Assembly (NCBI RefSeq): GCF_000710615.1
Contig: NZ_JDTH01000008.1
Location: 1 to 64,000, forward strand
From: Haladaptatus cibarius D43
Lineage (GTDB): Archaea; Halobacteriota; Halobacteria; Halobacteriales; Haladaptataceae
Length of the DNA stretch: 64,000 nt
Direction of reading: 5' to 3'
Shown piece by piece: positions 12,229 to 62,049 of this stretch. Every line of letters starts with the position of its first letter. The first letter of the stretch is position 1. The notes beneath the pieces are model-generated. The model was given only the letters and a program-made list of their open reading frames with translations. It had not been told where the DNA came from and made no database searches. Made by a program: the position numbers and the translations under genes.

Positions 12229-12242
12229 TCTCTCACCGAAGA

Positions 12243-14609: not shown

Positions 14610-15895
14610 CAAACCCGCAAGGTAAGATGTTCATCAGCTACAAACACTCCCAGCAACCGCTGGCAGAGGGACTAGAGATGGCTTTGCGGGAACACGGAGT
14701 CCCCGTCTGGCGCGACGTTCACGAGATAGGGCCAGACCCGTTGGAGCAGCAAATTCGGGAGGACTTGGCGGACCCGAACCTCGCAGGCGGCATCGCCGTC
14801 GTAAGTGAAGACGTCTCTGAGTCATCCATCATTCTTGAGGTAGAACTCCCGGCGCTTCGTGAACGGTGTGACGACGAGGACTTCTTCGTCGTTGTCGCTC
14901 TGTGTCCGGGGCTAGGGCACACCGAAGCAAAAACGATTCTCGCACAAGCAGACTCGCCTCGTGACTTCTCACATTGGTTCATGGAATCGATAGAGGTCGA
15001 ATCCAATGGGGAGGAGCCCACTTCCATACTCGATCACGTCGTCGATGCTGTGACGAGCGTCGTTCCGGGAACTCAGCGAACAAACAATCAATCACCGGCA
15101 TTCGACCAAGTCGTCACTGCTGTACTGGAGCGACGCCTCCAATGTGTTGAGAGTAACCTTTCTGATGACCAACCTATCGACTGTACTCTGGATACGTATC
15201 CACACCCCTCGTACGAGCCGCAGTTCGCACTGAACATCGACTGGTCGCCACACTTCGACGGCACCATCCCGAAGAAATCGATTTGGAACGATCGGCTCCT
15301 GCCCGCTCTGCGCCAATCAGTAGACTATCTACAAGACCGAGCTCCTGGTCGAGAACTTCGGTTCCGGGGACGAGCACATCTACCGGCTGCGTTCTCTCTG
15401 GGACACTGTCTCCAAGAGTCACGTGGAATCGCAGCCGCGTGGTTGCAGGGACAGCAGAGTGATTTCACGCCATGGCGAATAGATACGTCCCACGAAGAGA
15501 GTCGTCTACAATGTGATTTCGAGCATTTAGATACGACTGCTTCACACCTTGCTGTGATGGTCAGTATCGTCGACGACGTGCGTCCAGAAGTCGGGAGAGT
15601 GAAATCAGAGTTACCTCCGCTCAACGGGATGGTCGAATTCAGGCACGAGCAGAGCGGTGAGAAGAGGCTAACTGCTCCGAAAGCGTCCCATGTCGCACAC
15701 GTATTTGAAGAGCAGCTTCGTGATGTATTGAATCGAGTGTCGAAGACCTCGATGATTCATCTATTCATGGCAACTCCTGTAGGCCTCGCATTCCTCCTCG
15801 GTCAGAAGACGAACACTCTACCCCCGATCCAGACGTACTGTCTCAGTACAACGGATTCCGGGAGGGCGTACGAGCCTGTGGCCTTATTGAAGTAG
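14606..15895 (+). CDS. TIR-SAVED effector of CBASS
   Basis: 429 residues. The N-terminal 125 residues are a TIR domain: KMFISYKHSQ, VPVWRDVHEIG, then GGIAVVSEDVSESSII and a Glu (78 or 80 in LEVELPAL) in the position of the NADase catalytic Glu. The C-terminal half has the features of a SAVED domain, with a buried strand MIHLFMATPVGLAFLLGQ near the end. In known TIR-SAVED proteins cyclic nucleotide binding assembles the TIR domains into an active NAD-cleaving filament that kills the infected cell. Translation is coupled to the upstream gene by a 4-bp overlap. It is the terminal toxin of the operon. Confidence 0.88.
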   Translation: MTNPQGKMFISYKHSQQPLAEGLEMALREHGVPVWRDVHEIGPDPLEQQIREDLADPNLAGGIAVVSEDVSESSIILEVELPALRERCDDEDFFVVVALCPGLGHTEAKTILAQADSPRDFSHWFMESIEVESNGEEPTSILDHVVDAVTSVVPGTQRTNNQSPAFDQVVTAVLERRLQCVESNLSDDQPIDCTLDTYPHPSYEPQFALNIDWSPHFDGTIPKKSIWNDRLLPALRQSVDYLQDRAPGRELRFRGRAHLPAAFSLGHCLQESRGIAAAWLQGQQSDFTPWRIDTSHEESRLQCDFEHLDTTASHLAVMVSIVDDVRPEVGRVKSELPPLNGMVEFRHEQSGEKRLTAPKASHVAHVFEEQLRDVLNRVSKTSMIHLFMATPVGLAFLLGQKTNTLPPIQTYCLSTTDSGRAYEPVALLK

Positions 15896-19989: not shown

Positions 19990-21435
19990 GTGACTCCCTC
20001 CGTCTTCGATCCGGGCCTCTCTTTCACCGCAGTTGCTGAAACTGGCCTCAGCGAAATCAACAGCGACACCGGCGAGTTGCGAATTCAGGGGTTCTCGGTC
20101 GAAGACCTTGCTGAGAATGCAGGTTACGAAGAAGTAGCGTGGTTGTTGTTCAACGGCCGACTCCCGACCGACAAAGAGTTAGCCGAGTTCACGAACGAGC
20201 TCTCGTCCGCTCGAAACCTCACAGAGGATGTCTACAGTCTAATTCAGGCAGGTGCTGAAGAAGATGTGCCGGCAATAGATGTACTCCGGATGGGGTTGGG
20301 GGCCGGGAGTCTCTATTTTGACAGTGAGGACACCCTCATGGCTACCCGGCGCGTCGTCGCAATATGCCCAACAGTCATCGCAGCCTACTGGCGGTATCGG
20401 CGAGGGTTAGAGCCCATACATCCGCGTGACGACCTAACTCACACAGCGAATTTTTTATATATGCTTTCCGGGGTAGAGCCGGCCGAATCGACTGTAAAGA
20501 GGCTAGAAACGTATCTGATAAGTATTATCGAACACGGCCTTAATGCCTCAACATTCACCGCTCGGATTATCGGGTCAACCGGGTCCGATCCACTTTCGGC
20601 GGCTACCGGTGCCGTAGGAGCACTCAAGGGACCACGACACGGTGGAGCACTCGAACGAATTTTTGAGATGTTCACTGACCTTGATGACGGGACAAATCCA
20701 ACAACGTATGTTCAAGAGCGACTGGAGAACGACGGATCGTTACCTGGATTTGGTCATGTCGTCTATAACACTCGAGATCCGCGAGCGAAAATCATCGAAA
20801 GATCGGCAGAACGCGTTGTCAAGGGGCAAGAGTCAACATCGTTCCTTAGGAACGCACAAGAGCTTGAGGCCGCCGCTGAGGACTATTTTTCTGAACACTA
20901 CCCCAAGCGACAAATGCACGTGACTGTCGATTACTACGCGGCAGTTCTCCTTTCCGAACTCGACATTCCATCGGAATTGTTCACCGCGATCTTTGCTATC
21001 GGACGTTCCGCCGGCTGGATGGCTCACTACCTCGAACAGCTCGAAAGCGAGACACTACTTCGACCTCGAACACGATATATCGGCCCAGAGGAACGGTCGT
21101 GGATTTCGCGCTCGGACAGATATGTCGCGGGCGATTCGAGTCCGCCTTCATCCAACGATTTGAAGGGGATATCCTCAATTCTTGGCACTCTTTCAGAACC
21201 CGATCGGTTGGAGTTGTTGTTAATTCTGTATGAGTCAGCGAAGCCACTTTCGTACTCGTCGATTCGAGCGCAGAGTTCAATCGACGATAAGGGGCGGTTC
21301 AACTATCATCTCCGAAAACTTCGTAGCATATATATCACGAATACAGATGCGGGTTATTCATTGTCTGATACGGGCCGGAAGGTCATTGAAGTGCTCGTTG
21401 ATGACGAGCAATTGCTCGCACAAATAATCGAATAA
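19990..21435 (+). CDS. Citrate synthase-like protein fused to C-terminal winged HTH
   Basis: 481 residues from a GTG. Residues 1-375 are a citrate/2-methylcitrate synthase domain: IIEHGLNASTF carries the first catalytic His, KGPRHGGA the CoA loop, GFGHVVYNTRDPRA the second His, and TVDYYAAVLL the catalytic Asp; RPRTRYIG follows near the end. In the GHRVY box the usual Arg is Val. Residues about 390-475 are extra and resemble an ArsR-type winged helix-turn-helix (ILGTLSEPDRLELLLILYES, then NYHLRKLRSI). Citrate synthases normally end before this point. The fusion suggests a metabolite-sensing regulator or an enzyme tied to a promoter, possibly acting on the paralogue 240 bp downstream. Function is inferred. 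Confidence 0.82.
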   Translation: MTPSVFDPGLSFTAVAETGLSEINSDTGELRIQGFSVEDLAENAGYEEVAWLLFNGRLPTDKELAEFTNELSSARNLTEDVYSLIQAGAEEDVPAIDVLRMGLGAGSLYFDSEDTLMATRRVVAICPTVIAAYWRYRRGLEPIHPRDDLTHTANFLYMLSGVEPAESTVKRLETYLISIIEHGLNASTFTARIIGSTGSDPLSAATGAVGALKGPRHGGALERIFEMFTDLDDGTNPTTYVQERLENDGSLPGFGHVVYNTRDPRAKIIERSAERVVKGQESTSFLRNAQELEAAAEDYFSEHYPKRQMHVTVDYYAAVLLSELDIPSELFTAIFAIGRSAGWMAHYLEQLESETLLRPRTRYIGPEERSWISRSDRYVAGDSSPPSSNDLKGISSILGTLSEPDRLELLLILYESAKPLSYSSIRAQSSIDDKGRFNYHLRKLRSIYITNTDAGYSLSDTGRKVIEVLVDDEQLLAQIIE

Positions 21436-21677
21436 TGAGTCACCGATAGGGGAAGTAGATTTACCCTGTAATATTGAGACTATTTCATAGCCCGATGATT
21501 GTTGGAAACCTCCGATAGAGTTGTCTCCCACTATCTTCTGAGACAATAGGTAAACACGAGAACAATCGGTACACTGCTTGATCATGTTCCTGCGTTGGAT
21601 GATGATTAGCATTAGAAGAGAAATGGTCTTCTCCAAAGCCCTATCTTCAATTCTCTCTTTTCTCTATACGGATTAGC

Positions 21678-22811
21678 ATGGTTGACCAAAAGCTCCACCG
21701 AGGATTAGAAGACATCGCCGTCGCGGAAACACGACTCAGTACTATCGACGGCGAGGCTGGTGAACTCATCATTGGAGGATACTCTGTTGAGGAACTTGCC
21801 AAGAATGCGATCTACGAGGAAAGTGTTTTCCTGTTGTTTAACGACCGACGTCCGACGAAATCGGAACTCGAATCGTTCTGCACGGAACTCGCTGGCTATC
21901 GCAAAATCTCCAAGGAAGCCAAACAGGTACTTCGACAAGCCGCACAAGAAAACGCGGACGCGATGGACGCTCTGCGAATGGGTGTGGCCGCAGCCAATCT
22001 TGGCTCTGACTTGACAAAATCGACGGACTACGCCAAGCGACTGGTGAGTGTGATCCCAACTATCGTCGCGACCTATTGGCGATATCACTCAGGTAAAGAG
22101 CCGGTGGATCCACACGACGACCTCGGCCATACCGCGAACTACCTCTATATGCTGTCTGGCGAAGAGCCCGACCCCGCAGCTGTGAGAGGGCTCGAAACCT
22201 ACCTCAATACGGTTGTTGACCACGGACTGAATGCATCCACCTTTGTCGCTCGGTCTATCGCATCGTCCGATTCAGACCTCGTTTCAGCAGTAACGGGTGC
22301 AGTAGGGTCACTAAAGGGACCGCTTCACGGTGGAGCACCTGGACCGGTTTTGGAGATGCTCCTCGCAGCACACGAATCTGGAGACCCGGAGGGTTATGTG
22401 CAGGAGAAACTCGATTCTGGTGAGCGGCTTATGGGCTTTGGACACCGAGTGTATCGCACGCGCGATCCACGTGCAGAGGTCCTCTCCGGTGCCGCTGAAC
22501 GGTTTTATTCTGGATCGGGTGACAGAGCATTCTTCGGATTTGTCGAAGGATTCGAAGAGACTGCGGTTAGTCGACTGGCCGACCACAAGCCTGACCGAAA
22601 ACTCGAAACAAACGTTGAGTTCTACACAGCCGTACTTCTGCATGGAGTTGGCATCCCACAGGAGTTGTTTACGACCACCTTCGCTGTGTCACGAGTCGGT
22701 GGTTGGGTGGCTCATTGTCTTGAGCAGTTAGCAGATAACAAGATAATTCGCCCTGTGTCCATTTACGTCGGTGACCGTGGCCGATCGTGGACTCCAACAA
22801 ATACCCGCTAG
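21678..22811 (+). CDS. Citrate synthase-like paralogue with catalytic Asp replaced by Glu
   Basis: 377 residues, the usual length for archaeal and Gram-positive-type citrate synthase, and clearly paralogous to the preceding gene across its whole length. The two catalytic His boxes are present (VDHGLNAST and GFGHRVYRTRDPRA) and so is KGPLHGGAP. The third catalytic residue is changed: the box that normally reads NVDFY is NVEFYTAVLL here, Asp to Glu. A conservative swap may leave weak activity or change the substrate. There is no HTH tail. Start ATG at 21678, 241 bp after the first gene, so it may have its own promoter. Confidence 0.85.
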   Translation: MVDQKLHRGLEDIAVAETRLSTIDGEAGELIIGGYSVEELAKNAIYEESVFLLFNDRRPTKSELESFCTELAGYRKISKEAKQVLRQAAQENADAMDALRMGVAAANLGSDLTKSTDYAKRLVSVIPTIVATYWRYHSGKEPVDPHDDLGHTANYLYMLSGEEPDPAAVRGLETYLNTVVDHGLNASTFVARSIASSDSDLVSAVTGAVGSLKGPLHGGAPGPVLEMLLAAHESGDPEGYVQEKLDSGERLMGFGHRVYRTRDPRAEVLSGAAERFYSGSGDRAFFGFVEGFEETAVSRLADHKPDRKLETNVEFYTAVLLHGVGIPQELFTTTFAVSRVGGWVAHCLEQLADNKIIRPVSIYVGDRGRSWTPTNTR

Positions 22812-23146: not shown

Positions 23147-25342
23147 ATGCCTGAAGACGAGGAACTTTCTCTTGTACCAGACACCGCGAAAACAAACCCA
23201 GAAGACGATGAGCTAGGATATGCAGAATTCGCCGAGCATCTATCAGATACGATTGACGCGAAGGTTCCGACGACCGAGTTCATCATCGGAATCTATGGTC
23301 AGTGGGGGCTGGGAAAGAGTACAATTCTCAACTTCGTCAAGTACTATCTTGAGCAAGAGTACGAGACAGAAGGTGAAGATGAAAATGGAGACTGCTCCCC
23401 GCAGATTATCCGGTTCAACCCGTGGTGGTTCTCGGGACAACACGACCTTATCGAGAAATTCTTCTTTCAGTTACAGGCGGGATTGCAAAATGGTGACGAT
23501 GAATCTCGATTTAAAGAAGTGCGGGGAAAGATTGCGTCGTTAGGGACTAAAGTCTCATCGCTCCCTATCGGAGCGATGACTGGAGTTCCTAAGGCCGAAA
23601 AAACCATCGGCGTTTTAGCAGAGTTGGCAGATGAAGAATCTGCCAACACTTCCGTTGAAATCCTCAAAGACGAAATCTCGGCTGGGCTTAGAGAGGAAGA
23701 TCGGAACATCGTCATTATGATTGACGATATCGATCGTCTTACCGAGATGGAGATAAAGCAGATGTTCCGTCTCGTAAAGAGTGTTGCTGATTTTCCAAAC
23801 GTCACCTACATTCTAGCGTTCGACCAGAATGTGGTGGTTGACGCTTTAGAAGGTGAGGGAGGGTTCCGAAATGGTGAGGAGTACTTAGATAAAATAATAC
23901 AACTTCCTGTTCATATTCCCACACCACAAAGCCAGTCTATAGATCTGCAATTCCGCAGCCAACTTGATGAGCAGGTCAGGGAAGCGAAATTTGATAAGCA
24001 ACGTTGGCAACAAATGTACCATAACGGGGTGAAGGAACTTCTAGAGACTCCACGAGATGCAATTCGACTTTCAAATGCGATCGAGATCTCGTATGGTGCT
24101 TTGGAGGAGGAAATTAATATTGTCGATTTGGTCGGGATCGAAGCGCTTCGTATATTCAGGCGAGAAATGTATGAGGAAATCCGTGATGGAAAAGAAGAGC
24201 TTACTAAAAAAATAGATAGTCAACGGAGACAAATAGACTTCCGTGAAAATGATGAAGGAAACTCTGGGCAGGGGTTCTGGGTTACAGAAGAGGAATTAGA
24301 CGAAATAGATGGTTCAGTGTCTAATATTCTAACAACACTATTTCCAACCTTCCGCGATCTAAGTGATGCATTTTTCTTGTATAGAGAAAATTCAGAGACG
24401 CACCTCAAACGCAGGAGAATTTGCCATCCACATATGTTCGATTTTTATTTCAGGCTGACTATCCCTCGGGAGGGAGTCTCAATCAGCAAGATAAACACCG
24501 TTCTCGAAGCAACCAATGATACACAAACATTTTGTGACGTTCTATCTGACATTGTCAAGAGAGACGAAGATGGAGAGAGATCTCAAGGAGCTATTCTTTT
24601 GGAGCAGTTTACAGAGTATTTAGACGAGATCCCAGAAAAGAACATTGAGCGGGTTGTTGAGGCAATTTTCATTGCTGGGGAAGATCTCCTCGCGATTGAA
24701 TCATCTGACGACCTTGGATTAGATATTGAATTGTCTATTAAAAATATAGTTTGGTCGCTGTTAAACAGGCTCGATAAAGAGGATCGTCTCCCAGTACTCC
24801 AAGAAGCAATGAATCGTAGTGATTCGGCTTTTATGCCAGTATGGTTGGTTACAAATGCAGCCAACGAGCATGGAGAATACAGCAAACGTGAACTAGCGGA
24901 GGAGAATCGGCTTGTAAATGAGAATCAACTAATGGAGTTGAAGCAGATAGCTATCCAACTAATCCAGAAAGCAGCAGATGAGGAAGAGCTTCTCGATACG
25001 CTAAGAACAACACATATCTTGAAATCGTGGGCAGAATGGTCTGATTCCGAGCAACAAGCAGAGTGGGCGAGTAAAGTTGTACAAGATACAGAGGATCTGC
25101 TCTCCTTTATTGAAACTTTCTTTCATGAACACCATGGGTCTACAGCAGAAGGTGAAGTGATTCGCCATCGAGTAGATCCTCAAGAACTGGAGCCCTATCT
25201 AAACATTTCAGTAGTGGAAGAAAAAATTCGCGAACTGGATTACAAAGAGGTGACTGAAGAGCAACAACATATCATGGATGTATTCAAACAGGGACAAAAG
25301 GATTTAGAGGAAGGTAAGGATCCAACCCGACTGGGATTCTGA
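23147..25342 (+). CDS. KAP-family P-loop NTPase
   Basis: 731 residues. Walker A is GIYGQWGLGKST (about residues 47-58), followed by the KAP hallmark IRFNPWWFSGQHDLIEKFF, and Walker B is NIVIMIDDIDRL (about 185-196). The C-terminal half is helical and unassigned; I see none of the transmembrane segments that split many KAP proteins, so this may be a soluble member. KAP NTPases are patchily distributed, often on plasmids and next to defence genes, and some are needed for phage exclusion. Composition is AT-richer than the flanks, which suggests transfer. It ends just before two minus-strand genes. Confidence 0.82.
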   Translation: MPEDEELSLVPDTAKTNPEDDELGYAEFAEHLSDTIDAKVPTTEFIIGIYGQWGLGKSTILNFVKYYLEQEYETEGEDENGDCSPQIIRFNPWWFSGQHDLIEKFFFQLQAGLQNGDDESRFKEVRGKIASLGTKVSSLPIGAMTGVPKAEKTIGVLAELADEESANTSVEILKDEISAGLREEDRNIVIMIDDIDRLTEMEIKQMFRLVKSVADFPNVTYILAFDQNVVVDALEGEGGFRNGEEYLDKIIQLPVHIPTPQSQSIDLQFRSQLDEQVREAKFDKQRWQQMYHNGVKELLETPRDAIRLSNAIEISYGALEEEINIVDLVGIEALRIFRREMYEEIRDGKEELTKKIDSQRRQIDFRENDEGNSGQGFWVTEEELDEIDGSVSNILTTLFPTFRDLSDAFFLYRENSETHLKRRRICHPHMFDFYFRLTIPREGVSISKINTVLEATNDTQTFCDVLSDIVKRDEDGERSQGAILLEQFTEYLDEIPEKNIERVVEAIFIAGEDLLAIESSDDLGLDIELSIKNIVWSLLNRLDKEDRLPVLQEAMNRSDSAFMPVWLVTNAANEHGEYSKRELAEENRLVNENQLMELKQIAIQLIQKAADEEELLDTLRTTHILKSWAEWSDSEQQAEWASKVVQDTEDLLSFIETFFHEHHGSTAEGEVIRHRVDPQELEPYLNISVVEEKIRELDYKEVTEEQQHIMDVFKQGQKDLEEGKDPTRLGF

Positions 25343-25367: not shown

Positions 25368-25592
25368 TCAGTTACTGCGCCAGTAGCGAATCTTATCAAT
25401 CAGTTCTTCAAGTGCTTCTGGCATCTCGTCGGTTATATTTCCGAGCATGAACTTCGAGGACGCTAGCTTTGTTCGGTCGTTTGCTATCCTAAAGTGGAGT
25501 GGGTAGGCGTTGCAATGCTGAATGAGCCAAGCAGAATCCTGCCCCCCAACACAGCCATTTTTACTCCAACTCAGCGTTCGTCTCTTCAGCAA
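25368..25592 (-). CDS. Small hypothetical ORF
   Basis: 74 codons, overlapping the end of the next minus-strand gene by 32 bp. The C-terminal part (MPEALEELIDKIRYWRSN) looks like real haloarchaeal coding sequence, the N-terminal part less so. It could be a short translationally coupled gene or the remains of a larger one. No motif recognised. Confidence 0.35.
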   Translation of the reverse strand: MLKRRTLSWSKNGCVGGQDSAWLIQHCNAYPLHFRIANDRTKLASSKFMLGNITDEMPEALEELIDKIRYWRSN

Positions 25593-26676
25593 TCTCGTTC
25601 AGGAAGGTATCTTGGTATTCACCATTGACAACCCGGTGCACTCTAATCTCGTAGTTCAGGTGTTCTTGGCCATACTCCAAACGTTCGGGTGGGTCGTCAA
25701 CATAGCGAAAACATTCCACGAACGTCGTACGAGGATGTAACTCTCCTTGTTGATTTAACTGAACCACATCCACAGTGTTCCAGATGTCCCAGTCTGTTTT
25801 CTGAAAAAAGCCTTCGATTACTCTATTTAGATACTCTTCACTGGCTTCGTAGTTGGCTGCTCCGCCGAGTTCTGCGTCGTAGGTATCGTGATGAACCGAT
25901 GAGTCTGTCAACTGAGACGAGACTACCGGCGCAGTCACATCGTATTCATCTAACGTCTCTTCAACCTGAATTCGAACCTCATCATCAGCACGTGGCGAAA
26001 GAATAACTCGATTGATCAGCGCGTCCAGATCTGCACGCAGATTGATGTACTCCGGGTTGTCAGGAATCGTCTCGGACGGTGTTTCACGGCCGTCTATCTG
26101 TATCGTCGGATTACCGCCACGGTTCGCGAGTATCCGGAACTCTTGTTCACAGTCGAACTGCCGATGCTTGAAGAAGTACATCGCGTATGGGATTCCTGTC
26201 GGGGTGGTATCCACCTCGTAATCTAGGTATCGGACGATCCCCATGTACAGTCCTTCTTCCTCGACGTGTCGCTCAACCTGCTCGTATGTGGTCTCAATCG
26301 CCACACCTAGCCCATCAGCGTATTGATCCCAAATCTCTGGATCTTCATTTGTCCCAAGTCGCCAGCAGTTCGCATAGTAGTGCGAACGGGCATCTCCACG
26401 CATCTGTTCATACCCAGTAGCGAGATCCATTTCCTCGCCGTTATCCAATATCTGCTCGGTCTGTGCTGAACGTTGACGTTCACGATCACGAGCTGGGTTA
26501 GAAGCTTGTCCCTCGCGTTCCTCATATTCGGCGGCTTGGCCAGCCCGGAACCCGTTCTCAAGCGTTGATGCGAAATAACGCAAAGGCTTGTACCGCCGAA
26601 TGATCATCTGGTTTGAAGGAATCATCCAATCGGTGTTCTTTCCGGTGACTGGGCAACGAGAGGAATCACCCGACAT
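25561..26676 (-). CDS. DUF2971-like protein
   Basis: The frame opens at a GTG at 26739, but the ATG at 26676 (MSGDSSRCPVTGK) is the likelier start, giving 371 residues. The order YKPLRYFASTLENG, then YANCWRLGTNEDPEIWDQYA, then GVAIETTYEQV and FKHRQFDCEQEFRI follows DUF2971-type proteins, whose conserved Trp, Tyr and Glu-x-Glu-x-Arg positions are thought to form an enzyme pocket of unknown activity. Such genes are often found in mobile and defence regions. It is convergent with the KAP gene and divergent from the MCM-like gene. Confidence 0.55.
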   Translation of the reverse strand: MSGDSSRCPVTGKNTDWMIPSNQMIIRRYKPLRYFASTLENGFRAGQAAEYEEREGQASNPARDRERQRSAQTEQILDNGEEMDLATGYEQMRGDARSHYYANCWRLGTNEDPEIWDQYADGLGVAIETTYEQVERHVEEEGLYMGIVRYLDYEVDTTPTGIPYAMYFFKHRQFDCEQEFRILANRGGNPTIQIDGRETPSETIPDNPEYINLRADLDALINRVILSPRADDEVRIQVEETLDEYDVTAPVVSSQLTDSSVHHDTYDAELGGAANYEASEEYLNRVIEGFFQKTDWDIWNTVDVVQLNQQGELHPRTTFVECFRYVDDPPERLEYGQEHLNYEIRVHRVVNGEYQDTFLNEIAEETNAELE

Positions 26677-26860
26677 TATTGACTCTAAATTGTGTTTTTT
26701 CGCTACTTGTAAATCACGGTAAAGATTTGATGGAAGCACCCAGAGTTCAAATTACTCACTAATAGATTCCGGCGAACCGCCTGCTTCTTCCGAAACGTCA
26801 CAAGGTCGGAGTAAACAGTTCGCAAAGATTTTCCTACCGGGTACGCATCAGCGAACTAAG

Positions 26861-28957
26861 ATGGCACGCGCGAACCATACTGAACTAGTAGACCGATTCG
26901 AGCAGTTCTACCGTCGATATTACGCCGACCAAGTCGGAGAACTCGCCCAAAACTATCCGAATGAAAAGCGCTCGCTGTACATCGATTGGAACGACCTGTA
27001 TCGGTACGACACAGATATTGCAGATGATTACCTTGCGCAACCGAAACAGTTGCAAGAGTACGCCGAAGAAGCGCTTCGTTTGTACGACCTCCCTGTGGAC
27101 GTGGGCCTCGGACAAGCACATGTCCGTGTCCAAAACCTCCCCGAAATAACCGAAATCGGAGAGATCCGTTCACGGCATGTCCGCACGCTCGTCTCACTAC
27201 GGGGAACCGTCGAACGTGCATCGGCTGTTCGCAGTAAGATACAGGAAGCCGCCTTCGAATGCCAGCGGTGCGGGACGCTAACGCTCATTCCACAGAGCAG
27301 TCTCGGTGAGACGCAGGAACCTCATGAGTGCCAAGGATGCGAGCGACAGGGGCCATTCCGCATCAACGTTGACCACTCAGAGTACATCGACAGGCAGACG
27401 CTTCTCCTAAAACGTCGTCCGGGGAATGCGACGAAAGATGGAGAAGCAAGCATTGTCGTGACGGTCGAAGACGACATCGCAGGAGATGTCGCACCCGGTG
27501 AAACCGTGACTGTAACTGGTATCGTGCGTATCCTCAATGATGATCACACAGATGCTTCTATCGCAGACAAGATCATCGACGGTCTCTCGGTCGTCATCGA
27601 GGACGAAGAGTTCGAGGATATGGACATCACGGACGAAGACAAGGAAAGCATCGTTGAACAGTCCAATCAATCAGACATTTACGACCAGATGGTTAGCTCC
27701 GTGGCCCCCTCGATTTATGGATACGAGGAGGAGAAATTGGCGATGATTCTCCAACTGTTCGGGGGAGTCACAAAACATCTTCCGGACGGGACTCGTATTC
27801 GTGGCGACATTCACATAGCACTCTTCGGCGACCCTGGCCCCTATGAAAGTCGTCTGCTCGACTACGCAGGTGTTCTCTCCCCACGCACGATCAGCGCCTC
27901 CGGATCTGGCAGTTCGTCGGTTGGCCTCACCGCGTCGATGAAGCGCACCAAAAAGACGAGTCGCGGTGATAAGACGTGGGCTGTGGAAGCTGGTGCGCTT
28001 CCACTCGCCGACCGTGGTCTCGCATGTCTTGAGAGTCTGGACAAATTCAACGACGAACAGGGAGCGGCTCTCATCGACGTGCTTGAAGACCAGACGGTGA
28101 AGGTGAACAAAGCCACCGTCTCGGAGCAACTGAAAGCGCGGGCATCGGTTCTCGCCTCGGCACATCCGAAGTACGGACGGTTCGATCAGTACGAGCCGAT
28201 CGGAGAGCAGCTAGACCTCGAACCCGAGCTCATCTCGCAGTTCGACCTCATCTTCACGGTGACAGACCAGCCCGACCCAGACCACGACGCACGACTCGCG
28301 GAACATATCCTACAAACCAACTTTGCGGGAGAGTTGAACACTCAGCGAACCGAAATCGACGCCCCGAACATCAGCGAAGAACAGGTGCGAAGCCAGACAG
28401 AAGAAATCACTCCGGCCATCGACGCAGAACTCCTTCGCAAGTACATCGCCTACGCGAAATCGAACATCTATCCAACGATGAAACCGGAGGCCCGTCAGGC
28501 GATTCGGGACTTCTACGTCGATTTGCGTTCGAAAGCTGCGGACGAGGATGCGCCGGTTCCGGTGTCAGCCCGAAAGCTGGAAGCACTCGTTCGGCTGGCG
28601 GAAGCAAGCGCACGAGTTCGACTCTCGGATACAGTCGAACAGGAAGACGCAGATCGCGTCATCGATATCGTTCAGTCATGTTTGAAGGACATTGGGGTTG
28701 ACCCGGAAACGGGGCAGTTCGACGCCGACGTGGTCGAAACCGGGACGAGTCGAGAATATGACGACAAAGAGGATGCGATAAAACACCTCATCGAAGAGGT
28801 CGACGAAAACTACGATAAGGGTGCCCCAGTAGACGTTGTACTCGACAAAGCTTCTGAAATGGGTATGGAGCCTTCGAAAGTTGAGTACGTAATTGAGCAA
28901 CTGAAACAGAAGGGAGAAGCCTACGAACCCTCGACCGACTACCTTCGATCTACGTAA
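26861..28957 (+). CDS. MCM helicase homologue with destroyed ATPase site (pseudo-MCM)
   Basis: 698 residues with full MCM architecture: N-terminal domain with a zinc pair (C134/C137 and C157/C160), OB region to about 250, AAA core about 275-520 and a C-terminal winged helix (about 640-690). Every catalytic ATPase motif is altered. Walker A reads GDPGPYES at 323-330 (no Lys), Walker B reads ACLESLDKF at 388-396 (Asp-Glu replaced by Glu-Ser), sensor 1 is His435 in ASAHPKYGRFD instead of Asn, and the arginine finger is Gln460 in ISQFDLIF. The surrounding framework residues and the ARKLEALVRL box are kept. It should bind DNA or join an MCM ring but not hydrolyse ATP. Confidence 0.88.
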   Translation: MARANHTELVDRFEQFYRRYYADQVGELAQNYPNEKRSLYIDWNDLYRYDTDIADDYLAQPKQLQEYAEEALRLYDLPVDVGLGQAHVRVQNLPEITEIGEIRSRHVRTLVSLRGTVERASAVRSKIQEAAFECQRCGTLTLIPQSSLGETQEPHECQGCERQGPFRINVDHSEYIDRQTLLLKRRPGNATKDGEASIVVTVEDDIAGDVAPGETVTVTGIVRILNDDHTDASIADKIIDGLSVVIEDEEFEDMDITDEDKESIVEQSNQSDIYDQMVSSVAPSIYGYEEEKLAMILQLFGGVTKHLPDGTRIRGDIHIALFGDPGPYESRLLDYAGVLSPRTISASGSGSSSVGLTASMKRTKKTSRGDKTWAVEAGALPLADRGLACLESLDKFNDEQGAALIDVLEDQTVKVNKATVSEQLKARASVLASAHPKYGRFDQYEPIGEQLDLEPELISQFDLIFTVTDQPDPDHDARLAEHILQTNFAGELNTQRTEIDAPNISEEQVRSQTEEITPAIDAELLRKYIAYAKSNIYPTMKPEARQAIRDFYVDLRSKAADEDAPVPVSARKLEALVRLAEASARVRLSDTVEQEDADRVIDIVQSCLKDIGVDPETGQFDADVVETGTSREYDDKEDAIKHLIEEVDENYDKGAPVDVVLDKASEMGMEPSKVEYVIEQLKQKGEAYEPSTDYLRST

Positions 28958-29029: not shown

Positions 29030-30274
29030 ATGGATAATGACCGGGTGTTAAAAGTACTTGCTGTAGATGATCGGCACCTGCTGGTTGATCAAAACGGTGA
29101 GATAATCACAGTTCGAAATGAGGTTTCGCAACAAGTAACCTGTGGTGACTTCGTCGAAGTTGAAGACTGCTACGGGAGAGATAAGGCGATTGGGTTAGCA
29201 CAAAAGAACCATCCAGTGGGACAACAAGCGCTTGTCAAGAAATGTACTAATGAATACATTTTAGTGCAGACTGATACCGAGAAACGGATCCTTCCCAAGC
29301 CAGATGACGACATTTCACCCGGTGATGGAGTATTACTCACAGACCTAGGTGAATTTTACACCGTATTTAAAGAAGATATCGTCGAACTGGATAATCGGGA
29401 GAGTCAGTGGCGAGAATTAAATGAGACGAATTCATCTGATTTGGAACAAGAGAATGTGCCAGATAAGCAGTACTCTGATTTTGGAGGGATGGACGATGTC
29501 GTCGAGGAAGTGAGATACAAAGTAGAAGTACCTCTAAAGGAGCCAGAGCGATTCGAAACCGTAGGAATGGATGCCCCGAAAGGCGTACTCTTCTACGGGC
29601 CGCCCGGGACTGGAAAAACATATCTGGCAAAAATAGTAGCCAACCAGGTTGAAGAAGCATCCTTCTTTAGCATCAGGGGGCCGGAGTTATCTCACGAATT
29701 GGTTGGGGGTACTGCACGGAGACTTCGGGATTTATTTGAGAAGGCACAACAGAATCAACCAGCGATTATCTTTTTTGACGAGATTGATTCAATGGCTCCG
29801 AGACGGGACAAGACAATGGATGCTGGGCGTCGGACAGTCGGTCAATTGCTGTCACTAATGGATGGTATTGAAGATCGCGGGCGGGTGGTGGTAATTGGAA
29901 CGACCAATCTAATCGATGCGATTGATCCGGCACTCCGACGCCCAGGTCGGTTTGGGCGGGAAGTCGAATTTTCTCGACCATCGCGCGAAGGCCGACGAGA
30001 AATTCTGAATATCCATAAACCAGGTATTAATTTCGATGATAGCATATCTCTTGATGATCTCGTTGAGAAGACGAGCGGCTGGACAGGTGCTCATATTGAG
30101 TCGCTATTTGAGGAGATTGGGGAGATTTTACTAAAAGAAGAGCGGGACAAAGGGGCGAGTCCAACAATACATCGGATGGATATTGAGCGTGCCTATGAAA
30201 GGGTACAGACTCAAATCAACAATAAGGAGGCGCAACGACGTCGAGAGCAAGAAGCTGAGGAGGATGTACATTAA
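29030..30274 (+). CDS. AAA ATPase, Cdc48/PAN-like, single AAA domain
   Basis: 414 residues. Residues 1-125 look like small beta-rich domains, as in Cdc48 or PAN N-domains. The AAA module follows: FGGMDDVVEEV, Walker A FYGPPGTGKTYL (about 190), Walker B IIFFDEIDSM (about 250), sensor 1 VIGTTN, arginine fingers RRPGRFGREVEF. All catalytic residues are intact. Such ATPases unfold proteins or remodel complexes. The stop codon overlaps the next start by one base (TAATG), so the DUF6414-like protein is made in step with it. A TATA-like element (GATATCATAA) about 30 bp before the ATG suggests a short leader. Confidence 0.85.
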   Translation: MDNDRVLKVLAVDDRHLLVDQNGEIITVRNEVSQQVTCGDFVEVEDCYGRDKAIGLAQKNHPVGQQALVKKCTNEYILVQTDTEKRILPKPDDDISPGDGVLLTDLGEFYTVFKEDIVELDNRESQWRELNETNSSDLEQENVPDKQYSDFGGMDDVVEEVRYKVEVPLKEPERFETVGMDAPKGVLFYGPPGTGKTYLAKIVANQVEEASFFSIRGPELSHELVGGTARRLRDLFEKAQQNQPAIIFFDEIDSMAPRRDKTMDAGRRTVGQLLSLMDGIEDRGRVVVIGTTNLIDAIDPALRRPGRFGREVEFSRPSREGRREILNIHKPGINFDDSISLDDLVEKTSGWTGAHIESLFEEIGEILLKEERDKGASPTIHRMDIERAYERVQTQINNKEAQRRREQEAEEDVH

Positions 30275-31581
30275 TGGGAATTAAAACGTGGCTTTCAAAA
30301 TTGTGGAATGGGCAAGAGAAGGAAAACCAGTCGCTAGATGATGAACCGTCTGATCAGGATTTGGTAGAGGACTCAGTTGACGAAAATTCAGGATTGGATA
30401 CAGACGAACATGAGTACGAGAGAGAGCTTCGAGAATTTGTTTATCTTGACCGGGATAGTGTTGTAAGCCTTCTCGCATCTATTGAAGGAGCCATCAAACA
30501 GGAACGGATTGAACAGATTGGGAGTCGCTCGGAGGATCGAGTTTCTGGTGGTATAAACGCGAGTATCTCTGGAGTGGGTGCAAAGGTAGAGGGAGAACGG
30601 GTAGAGATGGGAGAGAACTCGTCTGAGGTGGTGCATAATTACGCGATTCAGTCACTCTTTGATCAGTTAGATCAACATCGACGGAACGATGTAGACCTAG
30701 GCGTTCTTGATACTAATAAAAAAGATGAGATAGACATTTCTGAGATAGAACGAAGTGATGTTCTTCGCGTCGATGTTGAGCTCAAAACACACTACCTATA
30801 TCGGTTTTATACAGTGATGATGTATATTCAGGAGAATATTCCCGAGTCGGTAGGTCTGGAGGAGGAAGATACGTTGGAACTGATCGAGTCAATGTTTGGG
30901 TCGGAGGTTCCGGTGAGTGGGCGCGTTCTTGATTATCAGGTTAAGAATGGGAGAATTCAACCTGTTGAATCAGATAACCCCGACGGAGAGCCGCTTCATA
31001 TCGTTGGGCAATTAAACACTATGAAGCTCTGGCAGGACATTCCTGATGCCTTGTTCGATGGAGGAGAGTACACAGTGTTTTGTCGCGTAAAGGAACTTTA
31101 TGAAGACGAACCATGGCGTCCCTTGAGCCTCGCGCAAAAAATTGAAACAGTCTCTCCACCACTTGCCCAGGCGTTAACTCAATTTATGGAACGTGCCTCG
31201 GCACTCGCAGAAGAGGAAGCAAGCGAACAGTACAGTGGTGATGCCGATCTAGATCAGTGGATGGATGCTCTCACTGAATTTGATGACCGAGCGGGAATTG
31301 ATAATAGGACTGACACTCTTCATCGGGAGTTTATGACCGAGTATGTGCTCGAAAACGGGATTCCAGCACTTACACCATCCGGAAGTACAGAATTGGTCAA
31401 TTTTTATAAGGAATATGCAATTTATCTCAGGGAACACAATATCGACTTATCGAAAGGGGATGAAGCAGAGGCTACTGATAGAATGATATTCAGTGAACAT
31501 CAATCAATGGGTGATAGGGAAACGAGAACAAGTGTTGACGGCCTTCAAATCGAGAGTCAAATTGTAGCTATCTATTGGTAA
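30274..31581 (+). CDS. DUF6414-like protein
   Basis: 435 residues. After a charged, acidic linker (residues 18-50) comes LREFVYLDRDSVVSLLASIEG, the typical opening of DUF6414 proteins, followed by a Gly/Ser-rich stretch and a mixed alpha-beta body; the function of this family is not established. The start overlaps the stop of the AAA ATPase, which makes a functional pair likely, for instance adaptor and unfoldase. AT-richer than most of the window. Family call by pattern only. Confidence 0.6.
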   Translation: MGIKTWLSKLWNGQEKENQSLDDEPSDQDLVEDSVDENSGLDTDEHEYERELREFVYLDRDSVVSLLASIEGAIKQERIEQIGSRSEDRVSGGINASISGVGAKVEGERVEMGENSSEVVHNYAIQSLFDQLDQHRRNDVDLGVLDTNKKDEIDISEIERSDVLRVDVELKTHYLYRFYTVMMYIQENIPESVGLEEEDTLELIESMFGSEVPVSGRVLDYQVKNGRIQPVESDNPDGEPLHIVGQLNTMKLWQDIPDALFDGGEYTVFCRVKELYEDEPWRPLSLAQKIETVSPPLAQALTQFMERASALAEEEASEQYSGDADLDQWMDALTEFDDRAGIDNRTDTLHREFMTEYVLENGIPALTPSGSTELVNFYKEYAIYLREHNIDLSKGDEAEATDRMIFSEHQSMGDRETRTSVDGLQIESQIVAIYW

Positions 31582-39865: not shown

Positions 39866-40861
39866 TTATCGGGTGAATGTAAGCGCGTGGTAGTCGTCCA
39901 ATTCACCGACGATGGCTTTCCGGAGGAGGATGACCTGCTGGCGAATCGCCTTTCTCCGACTCACCGAATAGTCGAAATACGGATGCGTGAACTCCTCTTT
40001 CATGTAGTTGTCAAACTTCGAGAGATAGGTTTTGAATGCCTCGTCACGAAGGCGATTGTCCCGATTGAAGTCGTCGTGGGTAATCGTTCCGCGATTCACG
40101 AGGCGAGTGACGAACGCATCGCAGAAACTCGTTCGGAACTCTTCTTGGAGGTCGAGCGCGAGCGACGGTTTTCCATGGCGGTCTGCATGCAGAACACCGA
40201 GGAAGGGGTCGAGGTTGTACTGCCGGAGGCCACTCAGTACTTCGTTTTTCATCATCACGTAAGTCAGCGAGAGGAGTGAGTTGATGTGGTCTTCCGGAGG
40301 CCGTTTCGTCCGCTTCTCGAACGTCCAGCCGTCTGCGAGTGTTTCGTCCAAGCGCGAAAAGTAGCGTTCGGCAGCCTCACCTTCGGTTCCCCGGAGCTCG
40401 TCCTTGTTCGTCGCGTTTTCAGCACGCACACCGAGATCTTTCAGCAAATCGGTTCCGTGAACCCCTTTCCGGCCGAGAAGCGTTCGTCCGTTGCGAATCT
40501 TCGCGGCAATCATCGCGCAAGCAATGGCGAGCTCATCGTCCGACGAGAGGGCGTATTGTGCGCGCCGAACCTCTGCGATGGTGTTTTTCTCAGGGACGAA
40601 ACTCCCACGGTACTTGCCATGCTGGGTGAAATAGTTCAGGACAATGCCGTGTTCGTTCGCTCGTGCGACGAATGGTGTGCTGAAGTTCACCCCACCGAAG
40701 ACGTTGATCGTGTCGAGTTGTTCCGTGGGATACGAAACGAGTTTGTCTCCGTCACCGTCCACATCCCAGACGACGATTCGGCCTCCATCGGTTCGAACCT
40801 GCGTTCCCTGTTTCGTGATGTAGACGACCGATTCATCGAACATTCCTTCAGTTGCTTTCAT
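39866..40861 (-). CDS. cas1: CRISPR integrase Cas1
   Basis: 331 residues from the ATG at 40861 (MKATEGMFDESVVYITKQGT). The frame is open upstream to 41122, but that part overlaps cas4 and does not look coding. Metal ligands of the Cas1 active site are visible: Glu in RGTEGEAAERYF, His in LGVLHADRHGK and Asp/Glu in LALDLQEEFR. Integrates spacer DNA at the leader-repeat junction together with Cas2. Overlaps cas4 by 14 bp. Confidence 0.95.
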   Translation of the reverse strand: MKATEGMFDESVVYITKQGTQVRTDGGRIVVWDVDGDGDKLVSYPTEQLDTINVFGGVNFSTPFVARANEHGIVLNYFTQHGKYRGSFVPEKNTIAEVRRAQYALSSDDELAIACAMIAAKIRNGRTLLGRKGVHGTDLLKDLGVRAENATNKDELRGTEGEAAERYFSRLDETLADGWTFEKRTKRPPEDHINSLLSLTYVMMKNEVLSGLRQYNLDPFLGVLHADRHGKPSLALDLQEEFRTSFCDAFVTRLVNRGTITHDDFNRDNRLRDEAFKTYLSKFDNYMKEEFTHPYFDYSVSRRKAIRQQVILLRKAIVGELDDYHALTFTR

Positions 40862-41456
40862 TGTGTATCTCCTGCTCGAATGCAGTGCCCGTTGCTTTGT
40901 CGGGTTCAAGCATCGCGGTTTCTTCTGGCATACAGTACTCGCGGGCCGAACAGGCCTCGCACTTTTTTCGATTGTCAGTAAGTGGTGGAACCGATTCGAC
41001 AGACATCGACCGCATCGCTTCGATTTGTTCCTGAACCGTTTTGCGGTGGTTTTCAGTGATTGGAATATGCATCCGCTGATCGGTTTCGTAGAGGTAAATC
41101 GCCCCTTCACGAACAGATTCACCGAGATGTTCTTCTAGTAGCAGACAGTATCCTGCGAGTTGGAGTTCGTCGCTCCGATAATAGTCGCCACTTTCGGCAC
41201 GTTTCCGTTCGACGGGAACGACTTGGTCATTACCGAGATCCAGCACATCGATCTTGCCCTTGAGTCCCAACTCCTCGGATTCGAGATAGAGTTCATTCAA
41301 CCAGTTGCCGCGAGTCGACTGATTTTCGTGTTTCGTTTTGCCTTCAACCCGATAGTAGTTCCGTCCCTGCGTATTGTAGAAGTGTAAATACCAGTAGCGA
41401 CGTGGACAGTAGCTGTATTGGTTGAGATCGGAGACGTTGACGAGTTCTGAAGTCAT
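40848..41456 (-). CDS. cas4: CRISPR-associated Cas4 exonuclease
   Basis: 202 residues. Iron-sulphur cluster Cys are at the N-terminus (YSYCPRRYW) and the C-terminus (KKCEACSAREYC), and between them lies the RecB-like nuclease core GLKGKIDVLD, VVPVERKR and QLAGYCLLL. Cas4 trims prespacers and sets the PAM and orientation during adaptation. It overlaps cas3 by 4 bp and cas1 by 14 bp, so it is translationally coupled to both. Confidence 0.93.
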   Translation of the reverse strand: MTSELVNVSDLNQYSYCPRRYWYLHFYNTQGRNYYRVEGKTKHENQSTRGNWLNELYLESEELGLKGKIDVLDLGNDQVVPVERKRAESGDYYRSDELQLAGYCLLLEEHLGESVREGAIYLYETDQRMHIPITENHRKTVQEQIEAMRSMSVESVPPLTDNRKKCEACSAREYCMPEETAMLEPDKATGTAFEQEIHNESN

Positions 41457-43342: not shown

Positions 43343-44043
43343 TACAACACCTCCGGAACAACGTGTTCGCGAACGAACTCGGGACTCGCCCCGACGAAGT
43401 GCTGAAGTCGCGGGTCGTTTCCACGGCGGAACGCCGAACTGTGTTCCATTAATTCGGTGAGTGTACTCTTGTTGAGGTCATAGACCTCCGACAGTAGATA
43501 CTTGTTGAGGACGAGGGTATCCTGCTCGCACTCTTGGGCTCGAAACTCACCGGTCTGTTTGACACCCATGCGGAAGAATGGGCGTGTAGGGATCGGTTTA
43601 TCGCTCCAGACAGTAAACTCGAACGTCGACCCAGGGGCGAGTCCAATATAGTTTCGAATCGTCTGATAAGCCGCACCGGAGTCCTCCAAAATCGAGGGAA
43701 CTGATTTGTCGCCAGTGATCTGTTTTGCGAGGTCTGTGTCGTTCGTCGTGAAGTTTCGCTCGGATCGGTAGTCCGTACTACGGAAGGTTCGTTCGTCGGC
43801 TTCCACCGCAACTGGCCGCATGTCCGAAACGAAAAACGACGCATCCCGTAAGTGCGAGTAATCCGGAGTCGTCGCACGCTCGCCGAGTTCGACGTATCGT
43901 TTCTCCATCTCGAAGTACCGATAGCCGAGTGCATGCATGAGCGCAGTTGCGGATAACGTTGGCTGTGTACGGATTGCACGCCCCTCCGAGCTGGAGTAGA
44001 ACAAGGGCGTGTAGAGCGTCGCCTCAAACGTCCGTTCAATCAT
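43342..44043 (-). CDS. csc1: Cas5d subunit Csc1 of type I-D effector
   Basis: 233 residues. Starts MIERTFEATLYTPLFYSSSE, the typical opening of Csc1, with a RAMP-like fold and FRMGVKQTGEFRAQ late in the chain. Csc1 caps the crRNA 5' handle in the I-D complex. Overlaps csc2 by 8 bp and cas3 by 1 bp. Confidence 0.88.
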   Translation of the reverse strand: MIERTFEATLYTPLFYSSSEGRAIRTQPTLSATALMHALGYRYFEMEKRYVELGERATTPDYSHLRDASFFVSDMRPVAVEADERTFRSTDYRSERNFTTNDTDLAKQITGDKSVPSILEDSGAAYQTIRNYIGLAPGSTFEFTVWSDKPIPTRPFFRMGVKQTGEFRAQECEQDTLVLNKYLLSEVYDLNKSTLTELMEHSSAFRRGNDPRLQHFVGASPEFVREHVVPEVL

Positions 44044-47418: not shown

Positions 47419-47420
47419 TT

Positions 47421-47663: not shown

Positions 47664-47689
47664 TATATCTGAATAGAATAGACCCACGA

Positions 47690-47696: not shown

Positions 47697-47702
47697 TCTA
47701 GG

Positions 47703-59053: not shown

Positions 59054-59965
59054 ATGACCGAGTCACCTCGTGGATGGGGCGTCGCACCATCAACCGGCAT
59101 CCCCACTATCGCCTTCGGCAATCAGAAAGGCGGGACTGGGAAAACGACGGCAACGATTAACAGTGCCGCCGCGCTGGCCACTCACGGCCACAATGTTCTT
59201 GCGATCGATATGGATCCCCAAGCGGACATGACAAAAGGACTTGGGCTAGGTCCGGGCGACGACAACGACCCGTCGAGCCCGAAGAACGACCTGCCAAACA
59301 CACTCATCACCGACGACGCAAATCTCCTAGACGTTCTCGTCGACAATCCACGCACGCACGACACGAGCCTTTCGGAGATCGTAATCGAGGCCGACGAGTA
59401 CGACCACCTGAACTTCGACCTGGCTCCCAGCCACAAGGACATGGGTCTCGCACGAGATTGGATGGACGATGCGAACGCCCGTCTTTCGTTGAAACTTGCC
59501 CTCGAAGAGTTGGTCGAGGATGGATACGACTATGATTTCATCCTCATCGATTGTCCCCCCGACCTCTCAGTTATGACAGACGCAGCGTTCATCGCAGCTC
59601 AGAACGTCTTTCTGGCAGCACAAACTCAAGCCACATCACGAGACGCTCTGGACGACCTCTGGGACCAGCTGGAGTCCATTGAAGACAATCAGCAGATCGA
59701 GATTGCAATCGTCGGGCTTCTAGCGAATATGTACCGTGACGATGGTCAGTCCCAAAAGTTCCTGAACGCGTTCGACGAGTCGTTCGCCTCAATGGCACCG
59801 ATTTTCAAACTCCCAATGCGGGTGGCGATACAGCGCGCGTGGGACAACGGACGAGATATCTTCGAATGGGAGGACGCAAACGACCAAGGCGTAGAGCGTG
59901 ACCTCTTCCTAGAAGTCGCAGAGACGATGGAGCGAGCGTTCGACAAAGCACAGGTGGAGGCATAG
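59054..59965 (+). CDS. parA: ParA-type partition ATPase
   Basis: 303 residues. The deviant Walker A is QKGGTGKTT (24-32), followed by AIDMDPQADMTKGLGLG and, later, FILIDCPPDLSV, as in ParA/Soj/SopA. It drives active segregation of the replicon. The partner gene starts 1 bp after its stop. An iteron field upstream is the likely centromere, and an autoregulatory role at this site is common in such cassettes. Confidence 0.92.
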   Translation: MTESPRGWGVAPSTGIPTIAFGNQKGGTGKTTATINSAAALATHGHNVLAIDMDPQADMTKGLGLGPGDDNDPSSPKNDLPNTLITDDANLLDVLVDNPRTHDTSLSEIVIEADEYDHLNFDLAPSHKDMGLARDWMDDANARLSLKLALEELVEDGYDYDFILIDCPPDLSVMTDAAFIAAQNVFLAAQTQATSRDALDDLWDQLESIEDNQQIEIAIVGLLANMYRDDGQSQKFLNAFDESFASMAPIFKLPMRVAIQRAWDNGRDIFEWEDANDQGVERDLFLEVAETMERAFDKAQVEA

Positions 59966-60711: not shown

Positions 60712-62049
60712 TTACTGTCTGAGCTGTGCGTTCACGATGGTGCGGAGTTCGTCATCGTGGACGTCATCTAGGCGCGAATCTTCCCGAAGCGTCTCGATGA
60801 TGGTTTCCGGGTTTTCACCAAACGTGAACTCAAGATAGCTGCCCGAGTGTGGCCCTTGGCTCTTCCGTTCTGTCTCAACCAACGAATACGTCGTGAGTTC
60901 CTTCATCTTATTCACGTACGTCTCCTGGTGGTACTGATCCGAACTAAGGGTACCTGTTAGGTACTGATATACTCGGTACCCGGTCGGGCTTTTCGCTGCA
61001 CCAGTTCCGGTTTCACGTGCCACAGCCGCAGTCGCGAAAAGACAGAGCTTCTTCTGCGTGCTAATCCCACGAGTTACCTCTAACACGCGGTTTTTCTCAA
61101 CCTTATCTTGAGCTTCTCGAACGTGCTCCTCACGGACTTTGTCCGCGCCTGTTCTTTCTGCAATCGATCCCGCTGTTCGCATCAGATCGATCGCCTTCCG
61201 TGCGTCCCCATTGGTTTGTGCGGCGAATGCTGCTGCGAGCGGGATGACATCATCACTGAGTGCATCCTCGTGGAAAGCATCTTCTCGGGCCTGGAGAATT
61301 TCCCGGAGTTGATTGGCGTCGTAGTCGCTGAAGTGGACATCTTCAGGAGTAAACGAACTGAGAGCACGGCTACCGACGCTCTCCATCATCTTCGTATCGT
61401 TAGTAATGGCGGTTACGGAGACCTGAGCATTGATCTCATCGGTGCTTCCAGCACGAGAGAGCTGATAGAGAAGGCGGGAGAAAGCTGGCTCATCCTTATC
61501 GCGACGACCGACAAGCATATCGAGTTCATCGAGGATGAACACGACGGTATCGTAGTGTTCGTTGATGAGACGATAGAGTTCGCGCCATTTTTTCTTGTTT
61601 GGAATGCCGTGTTCGGGAACGTCGACAGTCGTTCCGATGTCGTTCGCCACCTTTCGGACAAGTTCATAGACGGTTGCACCGAGGGTACCTACATTCTGGC
61701 AGTTCATCTGGATGACGCCAAACCGAATATCGCGACTTTCGCAAAGTTCGACGATGTTTTGACAGACGGCGTTAATGATCAGAGATTTCCCGGTTCCAGA
61801 CGGTCCATAGAGGAGGAGATTCGGTGGCCGCTCGTTACTAATCGCGACGCGAAGATGCTGAGTAATATCGGTGAGCTGTGTATCACGACCGACGATCCGT
61901 TCCTCATCGACGATCTCGTTCGGTTCAAGCAGAGAACGGTTCTTGATGAGACTCGCTGTTTCCTCCTGTTCGAGGATGAGATCTTTAATCGAACCCGTGG
62001 ACTTGGGGGTTCCCTCGGAACCAGGATTCGGTGGCATGCCGGATTCCAC
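60712..62049 (-). CDS. orc1: Replication initiator Orc1/Cdc6
   Basis: 445 residues. Walker A is YGPSGTGKSL (82-89), Walker B VFILDELDML (D164-D167), sensor 1 VTAITNDTK, sensor 2 region GDARKAIDLM, and a C-terminal winged helix (about 340-440, with the GPHSGSYLEF wing). Binds the boxes on both sides to open the origin and load MCM. The initiator gene next to a repeat cluster defines this region as the replication origin of the replicon. It may bind its own upstream boxes and so autoregulate. Confidence 0.93.
   Translation of the reverse strand: MESGMPPNPGSEGTPKSTGSIKDLILEQEETASLIKNRSLLEPNEIVDEERIVGRDTQLTDITQHLRVAISNERPPNLLLYGPSGTGKSLIINAVCQNIVELCESRDIRFGVIQMNCQNVGTLGATVYELVRKVANDIGTTVDVPEHGIPNKKKWRELYRLINEHYDTVVFILDELDMLVGRRDKDEPAFSRLLYQLSRAGSTDEINAQVSVTAITNDTKMMESVGSRALSSFTPEDVHFSDYDANQLREILQAREDAFHEDALSDDVIPLAAAFAAQTNGDARKAIDLMRTAGSIAERTGADKVREEHVREAQDKVEKNRVLEVTRGISTQKKLCLFATAAVARETGTGAAKSPTGYRVYQYLTGTLSSDQYHQETYVNKMKELTTYSLVETERKSQGPHSGSYLEFTFGENPETIIETLREDSRLDDVHDDELRTIVNAQLRQ

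Follow-up and report, generated by a model that had tools for sequence, protein, structure and literature searches.

The archaeal MCM is commonly regarded as a homohexamer in which all subunits are active. In the MCM ring the arginine finger and sensor 2 work in trans, on the ATP bound by the neighbouring subunit (PMC13049513), ATPase activity is lost when almost any residue of the active site is mutated (PMC4619765), and in at least one archaeal MCM assembly is driven by ATP (PMC13049513). The MCM A domain contacts an origin-binding protein (PMC12141716), and the eukaryotic ring tolerates inactivation at some of its sites (PMC6737378). A survey of the haloarchaeal MCMs described, in addition to the core group, extra MCMs of which four consist of the N-domain only (PMC3972481). 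The known precedent for an inactive archaeal MCM is the MCM of Methanopyrus kandleri (cited in PMC3972481).

Here we describe an MCM gene located in the window, that is, in the whole 64,000-nucleotide stretch of haloarchaeal DNA analysed, which comprises bases 1-64000 of the 84,182-bp contig C8 from a genome of 3.93 Mb in 13 contigs. A preliminary description of this gene had proposed that it lost all its ATPase motifs while keeping the MCM fold, and that it was selected for a non-catalytic role.

Motifs and fold of the window MCM

The gene is an intact ORF of 698 codons starting with ATG (Table 1), and its product shares 72% identity with the genome's own chromosomal MCM, a normal and intact copy placed on contig C1. 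Four motifs are replaced with respect to the chromosomal protein. Walker A changes from GDPGTGKS to GDPGPYES (Lys to Glu), Walker B from VDELDKM to LESLDKF (Asp-Glu to Glu-Ser), sensor 1 from AANPKYG to SAHPKYG (Asn to His) and the arginine finger from SRFD to SQFD (Arg to Gln); hence E, ES, H and Q occupy the four sites, and the motif set of an active helicase is absent. In the same alignment the other MCMs show the canonical motifs, with the exception of two relatives of the clade described below. In what follows we call dead those MCMs with the finger lost and Walker B damaged in an intact full-length ORF, a working definition under which the window MCM falls.

The four zinc cysteines, Lys417 of the PS1-hairpin and the framework residues are invariant in the dead family and in the canonical MCMs aligned, and sensor 2 Arg578 is present in nearly all of them, including the window copy. 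The replacement of the Walker A Lys, the Walker B Asp-Glu, the sensor 1 Asn and the finger was thus confirmed, as was the preservation of the frame, the zinc site and the framework around the motifs; the loss of all ATPase motifs holds for these four, but sensor 2 remains.

All five Pfam MCM domains of the protein (MCM_N, MCM_OB, the MCM P-loop domain with 235 bits, MCM_lid and the archaeal MCM winged helix) are over the cut-off. The AlphaFold2 model, with a mean pLDDT of 82, predicts an ordinary MCM fold whose top PDB matches are archaeal MCM chains (TM 0.77), in agreement with the proposal that the fold is kept. The score against the NCBIfam MCM model NF040949 is 618.9 bits, below the threshold of 940 bits, and the protein fails the pattern of the core-group MCMs (GDPGTGKS, DELD, SRF; one per genome). 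The third-position GC of the gene is 0.60 versus about 0.42 in its neighbours.

When the chromosomal gene was subjected in a simulation to 0.1 random substitutions per site, none of the 1000 runs retained an open frame. Taken together with the recurrence of the lesion pattern in a clade, this places the lesions of the window gene beyond chance.

Table 1. Features of the window MCM gene and of the replicon that carries it
Feature	Position	Strand	Basis
Putatively ATPase-dead MCM paralog, 698 aa	26861..28957	+	ORF, Pfam MCM architecture, motif comparison
A subdomain, residues 1-95, 91% to own chromosomal MCM	26861..27145	+	Sliding identity, tree, AU tests, host matrix
Zinc site Cys134/137/157/160, kept	27260..27340	+	Invariant alignment columns
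AAA+ core, residues 321-470, dead-clade type, four replaced ATPase motifs	27821..28270	+	Identity, clade
AAA lid region, residues 471-620, 92-94% host-matched, sensor 2 Arg578 kept	28271..28720	+	
Winged-helix domain, residues 635-698, ~58% to chromosomal MCM	28763..28954	+	Pfam, identity
ParA-type partition ATPase, same contig	59054..59965	+	Pfam AAA_31/CbiA
Orc1/Cdc6 initiator, same contig	60712..62049	-	Pfam Cdc6_lid and Cdc6_C

A family of dead MCMs on haloarchaeal plasmids

Identity searches over 28 Haladaptataceae genomes, 392 genomes of the order, 146 of another family (probably the Haloarculaceae) and plasmid records gave nine further full-length dead relatives, located on haloarchaeal plasmids or plasmid-sized contigs. 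They are those of a Halorussus pelagicus plasmid, an H. vallis plasmid, Haloarcula sinaiiensis pHsi139, H. taiwanensis pNYT2, H. amylolytica, Salinibaculum KK48 and genomes G318, G389 and G393, with a half-length fragment in G409. Dead MCMs of the close type are rare, being found in 3 of the 392 genomes of the order. These counts are based on the identity searches because a scan of the genome contigs with the finger pattern, which returned a new H. amylolytica record, one known record and one irrelevant bacterial match, would miss fingers other than Gln. No description of the dead clade was found in the open-licence literature.

The arginine finger is replaced by Gln in nine of the ten full-length dead proteins and by Asn in the remaining one, and the Walker B Glu is lost in all except the H. 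taiwanensis/H. amylolytica pair, where the Asp is lost. The Walker A Lys, the Walker B Asp and the sensor 1 Asn are present together in four proteins (H. pelagicus, H. vallis, Salinibaculum and G389) and absent together from six (window, H. sinaiiensis, G318, G393, H. taiwanensis and H. amylolytica), with no intermediate combination among the ten. Since the three residues are kept or lost together, the losses are coordinated; random combinations of lesions, sought among the relatives, gave way to two all-or-none tiers, a pattern for which three or more changes must be assumed when it is mapped on the core tree with masked motifs.

In that tree, calculated with the motif columns masked, the window MCM groups with two Halorussus copies (98/96), and the dead set plus a pair with a Walker B Glu to Asp change builds a clade of 13 rows (99/97), in whose supported subclades the nine relatives fall. 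The dead set alone reaches 54/71, a grouping neither established nor rejected. Sampling was of one sequence per species, and tree support is limited by the short segments. The Glu to Asp pair (L096 and L108), of plasmid type and with an intact finger, comes from Halobacterium hubeiense and G094. Active plasmid MCMs fall outside the dead clade. Conservation of the degenerate motifs as a clade is supported, for a clade that also contains the Glu to Asp pair.

Full-length sisters of the window gene are intact; the exceptions to intact genes are the half-length G409 fragment and a second H. vallis copy with a frameshift, the kind of lesion that the preliminary description had named as speaking against its proposal. 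On the H. vallis plasmid the dead-MCM region is repeated near-identically (L036/L037, 14.8-27 kb and 117.5-129 kb), the second MCM being the frameshifted one; the repeat may be a true duplication or an assembly artefact.

A viral origin of the dead MCMs was considered and rejected. No dead copy was found among the INPHARED phages, whose best MCM, that of HJTV-4 (42.6%), has the Walker A Lys, Walker B and finger all intact, nor in IMG/VR when scanned by finger pattern; the scan of IMG/VR with the core region gave one weak match.

Selection on the dead core

The dead proteins of H. taiwanensis and H. amylolytica are 94% identical. NG86 counts for this pair gave a dN of 0.027 and a dS of 0.242 (ratio 0.11) overall, and a dN/dS of 0.09 in the dead core, with 15 synonymous versus 4 replacement changes. 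The ratio in the core indicates that purifying selection maintains the fully dead Haloarcula pair, which supports the selection for a non-catalytic role proposed earlier. Between the window and chromosomal genes, the host-matched segments show pN of 0.05 and 0.034 and pS of 0.49 and 0.37; between the window and H. pelagicus cores pN is 0.18 and pS 0.71, the latter near saturation.

Mosaicism with the chromosomal MCM

The A subdomain (residues 1-95) and the lid (about residues 525-600) of the window and H. pelagicus proteins share 86-98% of their residues with the chromosomal MCM of the carrier lineage (86-94% for the window copy alone). In residues 326-425 the identity of both to the chromosomal MCM falls to 44-55%, while the chromosomal MCMs share about 93% among themselves; for residues 301-425 of the window core the values are about 47-62% and 93%, respectively. 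The conservation pattern of these two genes is therefore the reverse of the usual one. By sliding identity, active plasmid MCMs stand below these two in the A subdomain, at about 31-70%, and mostly above them in the core, at 42-78%. When the window copy alone is considered, its core goes down to 47-55%, and the corresponding values of active plasmid MCMs are 47-66% for the A subdomain and mostly 56-78% for the core.

In the A-segment tree the window protein falls inside Haladaptatus, and that of H. pelagicus inside Halorussus. A single clade of dead proteins was rejected for this segment (p-AU 0.005 with three of them and 2.4e-5 with seven). For the core, a tree that unites the window protein with the Haladaptatus chromosomal MCMs was rejected as well (p-AU 4e-6). 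Hence, the AU tests reject a single history for the A segment and the core.

Identity of the A segment peaks on the carrier's own lineage in eight of the ten dead MCMs (in H. sinaiiensis, on its genus), the ones not host-matched being Salinibaculum KK48, a near-tie with all values around 50-57%, and G389. The Glu to Asp copy of G094 also peaks on its carrier lineage, its A subdomain being 86% identical to that of its own host, and two of three active plasmid MCMs are not closest to theirs. The AAA lid is host-matched in the Haladaptataceae members, and the core follows the dead lineage.

The DNA flanking the window gene has no homology to the chromosomal MCM locus on either side, so the gene is not a fresh copy of the whole locus. 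Gene conversion is the likely mechanism of the mosaicism, and selection may have favoured host matching. However, as long similar stretches of plasmid and chromosome recombine, conversion alone can produce host matching, which counts against the regulatory role proposed below; in the active plasmid MCMs, divergence may simply be too great for conversion. Trees built from the whole gene would, with such mosaics, mislead on the origin of the extra MCMs.

The replicon and its gene neighbourhood

Since it bears its own Orc1/Cdc6 and ParA genes, the 84-kb contig is probably a plasmid, as previously suggested. Its Orc1 shares 51% identity with the counterpart on the H. pelagicus plasmid, which bears a related dead MCM. 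No conserved partner gene was found across the dead-MCM family. Integrases of one type lie near four of the copies, and a 313-aa protein of no known family adjoins the dead MCMs at three Haloarcula-type loci (L100 1884-2825, L143 1303-2247).

Downstream of the window MCM, positions 29030-31581 encode an IetA-like AAA ATPase and an overlapping DUF6414 gene. The same two genes are found again on plasmids of Halobacterium salinarum and Haladaptatus, with no MCM beside them; a fixed operon with the MCM was therefore rejected, and the pair is a candidate stand-alone module. Directly upstream of the MCM there is a divergent gene (25561-26739) with a weak PDC-S31 match, preceded by a KAP-family ATPase (23147-25342) that matches the PADLOC PifA model (2e-109). 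The window also contains a CBASS-like cluster (11095-15895) composed of a SMODS nucleotidyltransferase, a ThiF-JAB protein and a TIR-SAVED effector; CRISPR-Cas genes, probably of type I-D, for Cas1, a Cas3-like DEAD helicase, Csc2 and Cas6 (39866-48721); and two adjacent citrate-synthase genes, one of them fused to DUF7347 (19990-22811).

Related plasmids carry pieces of MCM as separate genes. A 177-aa protein with a C-terminal, host-like MCM winged helix (L100 5185-5718 and L113) is encoded just downstream of a dead MCM that has a diverged winged helix of its own. The H. pelagicus plasmid bears a stand-alone lid plus winged-helix gene (L094 11677-12471), and the H. vallis plasmid one with only the A/OB part (L095 5313-6287); genes for the winged helix only are also found. 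On a Haloglomus plasmid, a gene named for an 'HsdR N-terminal domain' (L120 4001-5494) starts with an MCM N-domain, matched at 42% over residues 1-244.

A model for the function of the window MCM

We propose, giving it roughly even chances, that the product of the window gene is a hydrolysis-dead MCM subunit, borne by the replicon and maintained by selection, which co-assembles with the host MCM, or docks where it does, and regulates its loading. In the model, the protein's own ATP site would support no turnover, with Walker A, Walker B and sensor 1 lost, and the loss of the finger would leave the site of the neighbour incomplete. Given that the finger acts in trans and that active-site mutations abolish ATPase activity, we infer a subunit inert at its own site that also disables the adjacent one. 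The parts needed for a two-tiered MCM body, for zinc and DNA binding and for partner contact are still present, and the host-matched A subdomain and lid suggest an action exerted via the host MCM or its partners. Co-assembly with the chromosomal MCM would produce a mixed ring or a mixed double hexamer; alternatively, the window MCM would fill the docking sites of MCM competitively. Either way, helicase loading or activation would be regulated, the subunit serving plasmid replication as a scaffold for recruitment, or else acting as a brake. Against this proposal counts the ATP-driven assembly mentioned above, as a subunit lacking both Walker A and the finger may be incorporated into rings only poorly. 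The two dead members that are not host-matched and the failure to find a partner gene common to the family count against it as well.

For the family as a whole, the selected dead MCMs probably mean that plasmids act on the host replication machine without unwinding DNA. A wider reading, somewhat less likely than not, is helicase mimicry: an old, selected dead core would have repeatedly acquired the A subdomain (and lid) of its current host, to enter or imitate the host helicase and to brake, redirect or poison its own or other replicons.

Two specific roles had been suggested at the outset, a decoy that poisons or caps an MCM ring of invader or host and an origin-marking protein of the plasmid. 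Coordinated loss, selection and the clade argue for a non-catalytic role in general, but these particular roles did not fare as well. Nothing points specifically to the MCM of an invader, and the host MCM or its partners are the better target because the A subdomain is matched to the host. A finger-less and Walker-less subunit entering the rings of host or invader would spoil two sites per ring, or could tie up MCM partners, and rival plasmids or viruses would be blocked, as in defence or superinfection exclusion. The abundance of defence genes in the window (the CBASS-like cluster, the Cas genes and the PifA-like and IetA-like ATPases) and the MCM fragments borne by related plasmids (N-domain-only, lid plus winged-helix and winged-helix-only genes) would fit such a poison. 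Yet plasmids of this kind commonly bear defence genes, the adjacent AAA-DUF6414 pair is found elsewhere without an MCM, no PADLOC defence model matches the window MCM, and the host-matched parts would hurt the carrier's own helicase unless tightly controlled, so that we regard this role as unlikely.

It is also quite unlikely that the protein acts outside the host rings, in a non-catalytic complex with the plasmid Orc1/Cdc6 that marks the plasmid origin. Its DNA-contact features are still present, and the dead MCMs of the window, H. pelagicus, H. sinaiiensis and H. taiwanensis pNYT2 share their replicon with genes for Orc1/Cdc6 and/or ParA. However, the orc1 gene of the window lies about 32 kb away, the winged helix belongs to the more diverged parts of the protein, and such a role would not explain why the A subdomain is repeatedly matched to the host.

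The joint retention or loss of the Lys, Asp and Asn could be read, from the residues themselves, as an ATP-binding switch, in which the four Walker A-positive members would bind ATP and not hydrolyse it, and the other six would be derived forms acting by shape. As a separate explanation this is very unlikely, and it is compatible with our proposal of a regulatory subunit rather than exclusive of it. Finally, that the gene is a decaying duplicate, readable only through gene conversion from the chromosome, agrees with the lower synonymous divergence of the host-matched segments, but is scarcely tenable and largely refuted by the purifying selection on the unconverted core of the fully dead pair, by a core frame that stays open despite near-saturating synonymous divergence, by the presence of this core in several genera and by non-coding flanks without homology to the chromosomal copy.

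Comparison with known MCM systems

The window MCM shares length, domain order and zinc site with the chromosomal core-group MCMs of haloarchaea, including the copy in its own genome, but the catalytic motifs that are invariant in that group (PMC3972481) are replaced. It resembles the 'outlier' haloarchaeal MCMs (Kristensen et al. 2014) in being an extra MCM, of a kind often found on mobile elements such as plasmids and viruses; in contrast, none of the nine full-length outliers had lost the Walker A Lys, Walker B or SRF (PMC3972481). Haloarchaeal MCMs with only the N-domain (312-315 aa), a similar one of which occurs on the H. vallis plasmid together with the dead MCM, cannot be helicases either; these have no AAA+ domain, whereas the window MCM retains the whole fold. 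Methanopyrus kandleri MCM2 (PDB 3F8T) is likewise an archaeal homologue reported to be catalytically inactive (cited in PMC3972481), but it belongs to a distant methanogen and is not known to be a host-matched mosaic. M. kandleri MCM2 was absent from the best 60 PDB sequence matches and from the best 50 fold matches of the window MCM.

If our proposal is true, mixed MCM rings are formed or mimicked by plasmids in archaea, and replicons have a new way to control or attack host replication. In the eukaryotic Mcm2-7 complex the subunits with dispensable sites keep their motifs, while those of the window MCM are gone. The two systems are nevertheless alike in that the Mcm2-7 ring can hold subunits with a dispensable ATP site or finger (PMC6737378). 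Mixed archaeal rings would thus be an independent parallel to the Mcm2-7 division of labour, and the dead family makes it testable which MCM sites a ring can lose.
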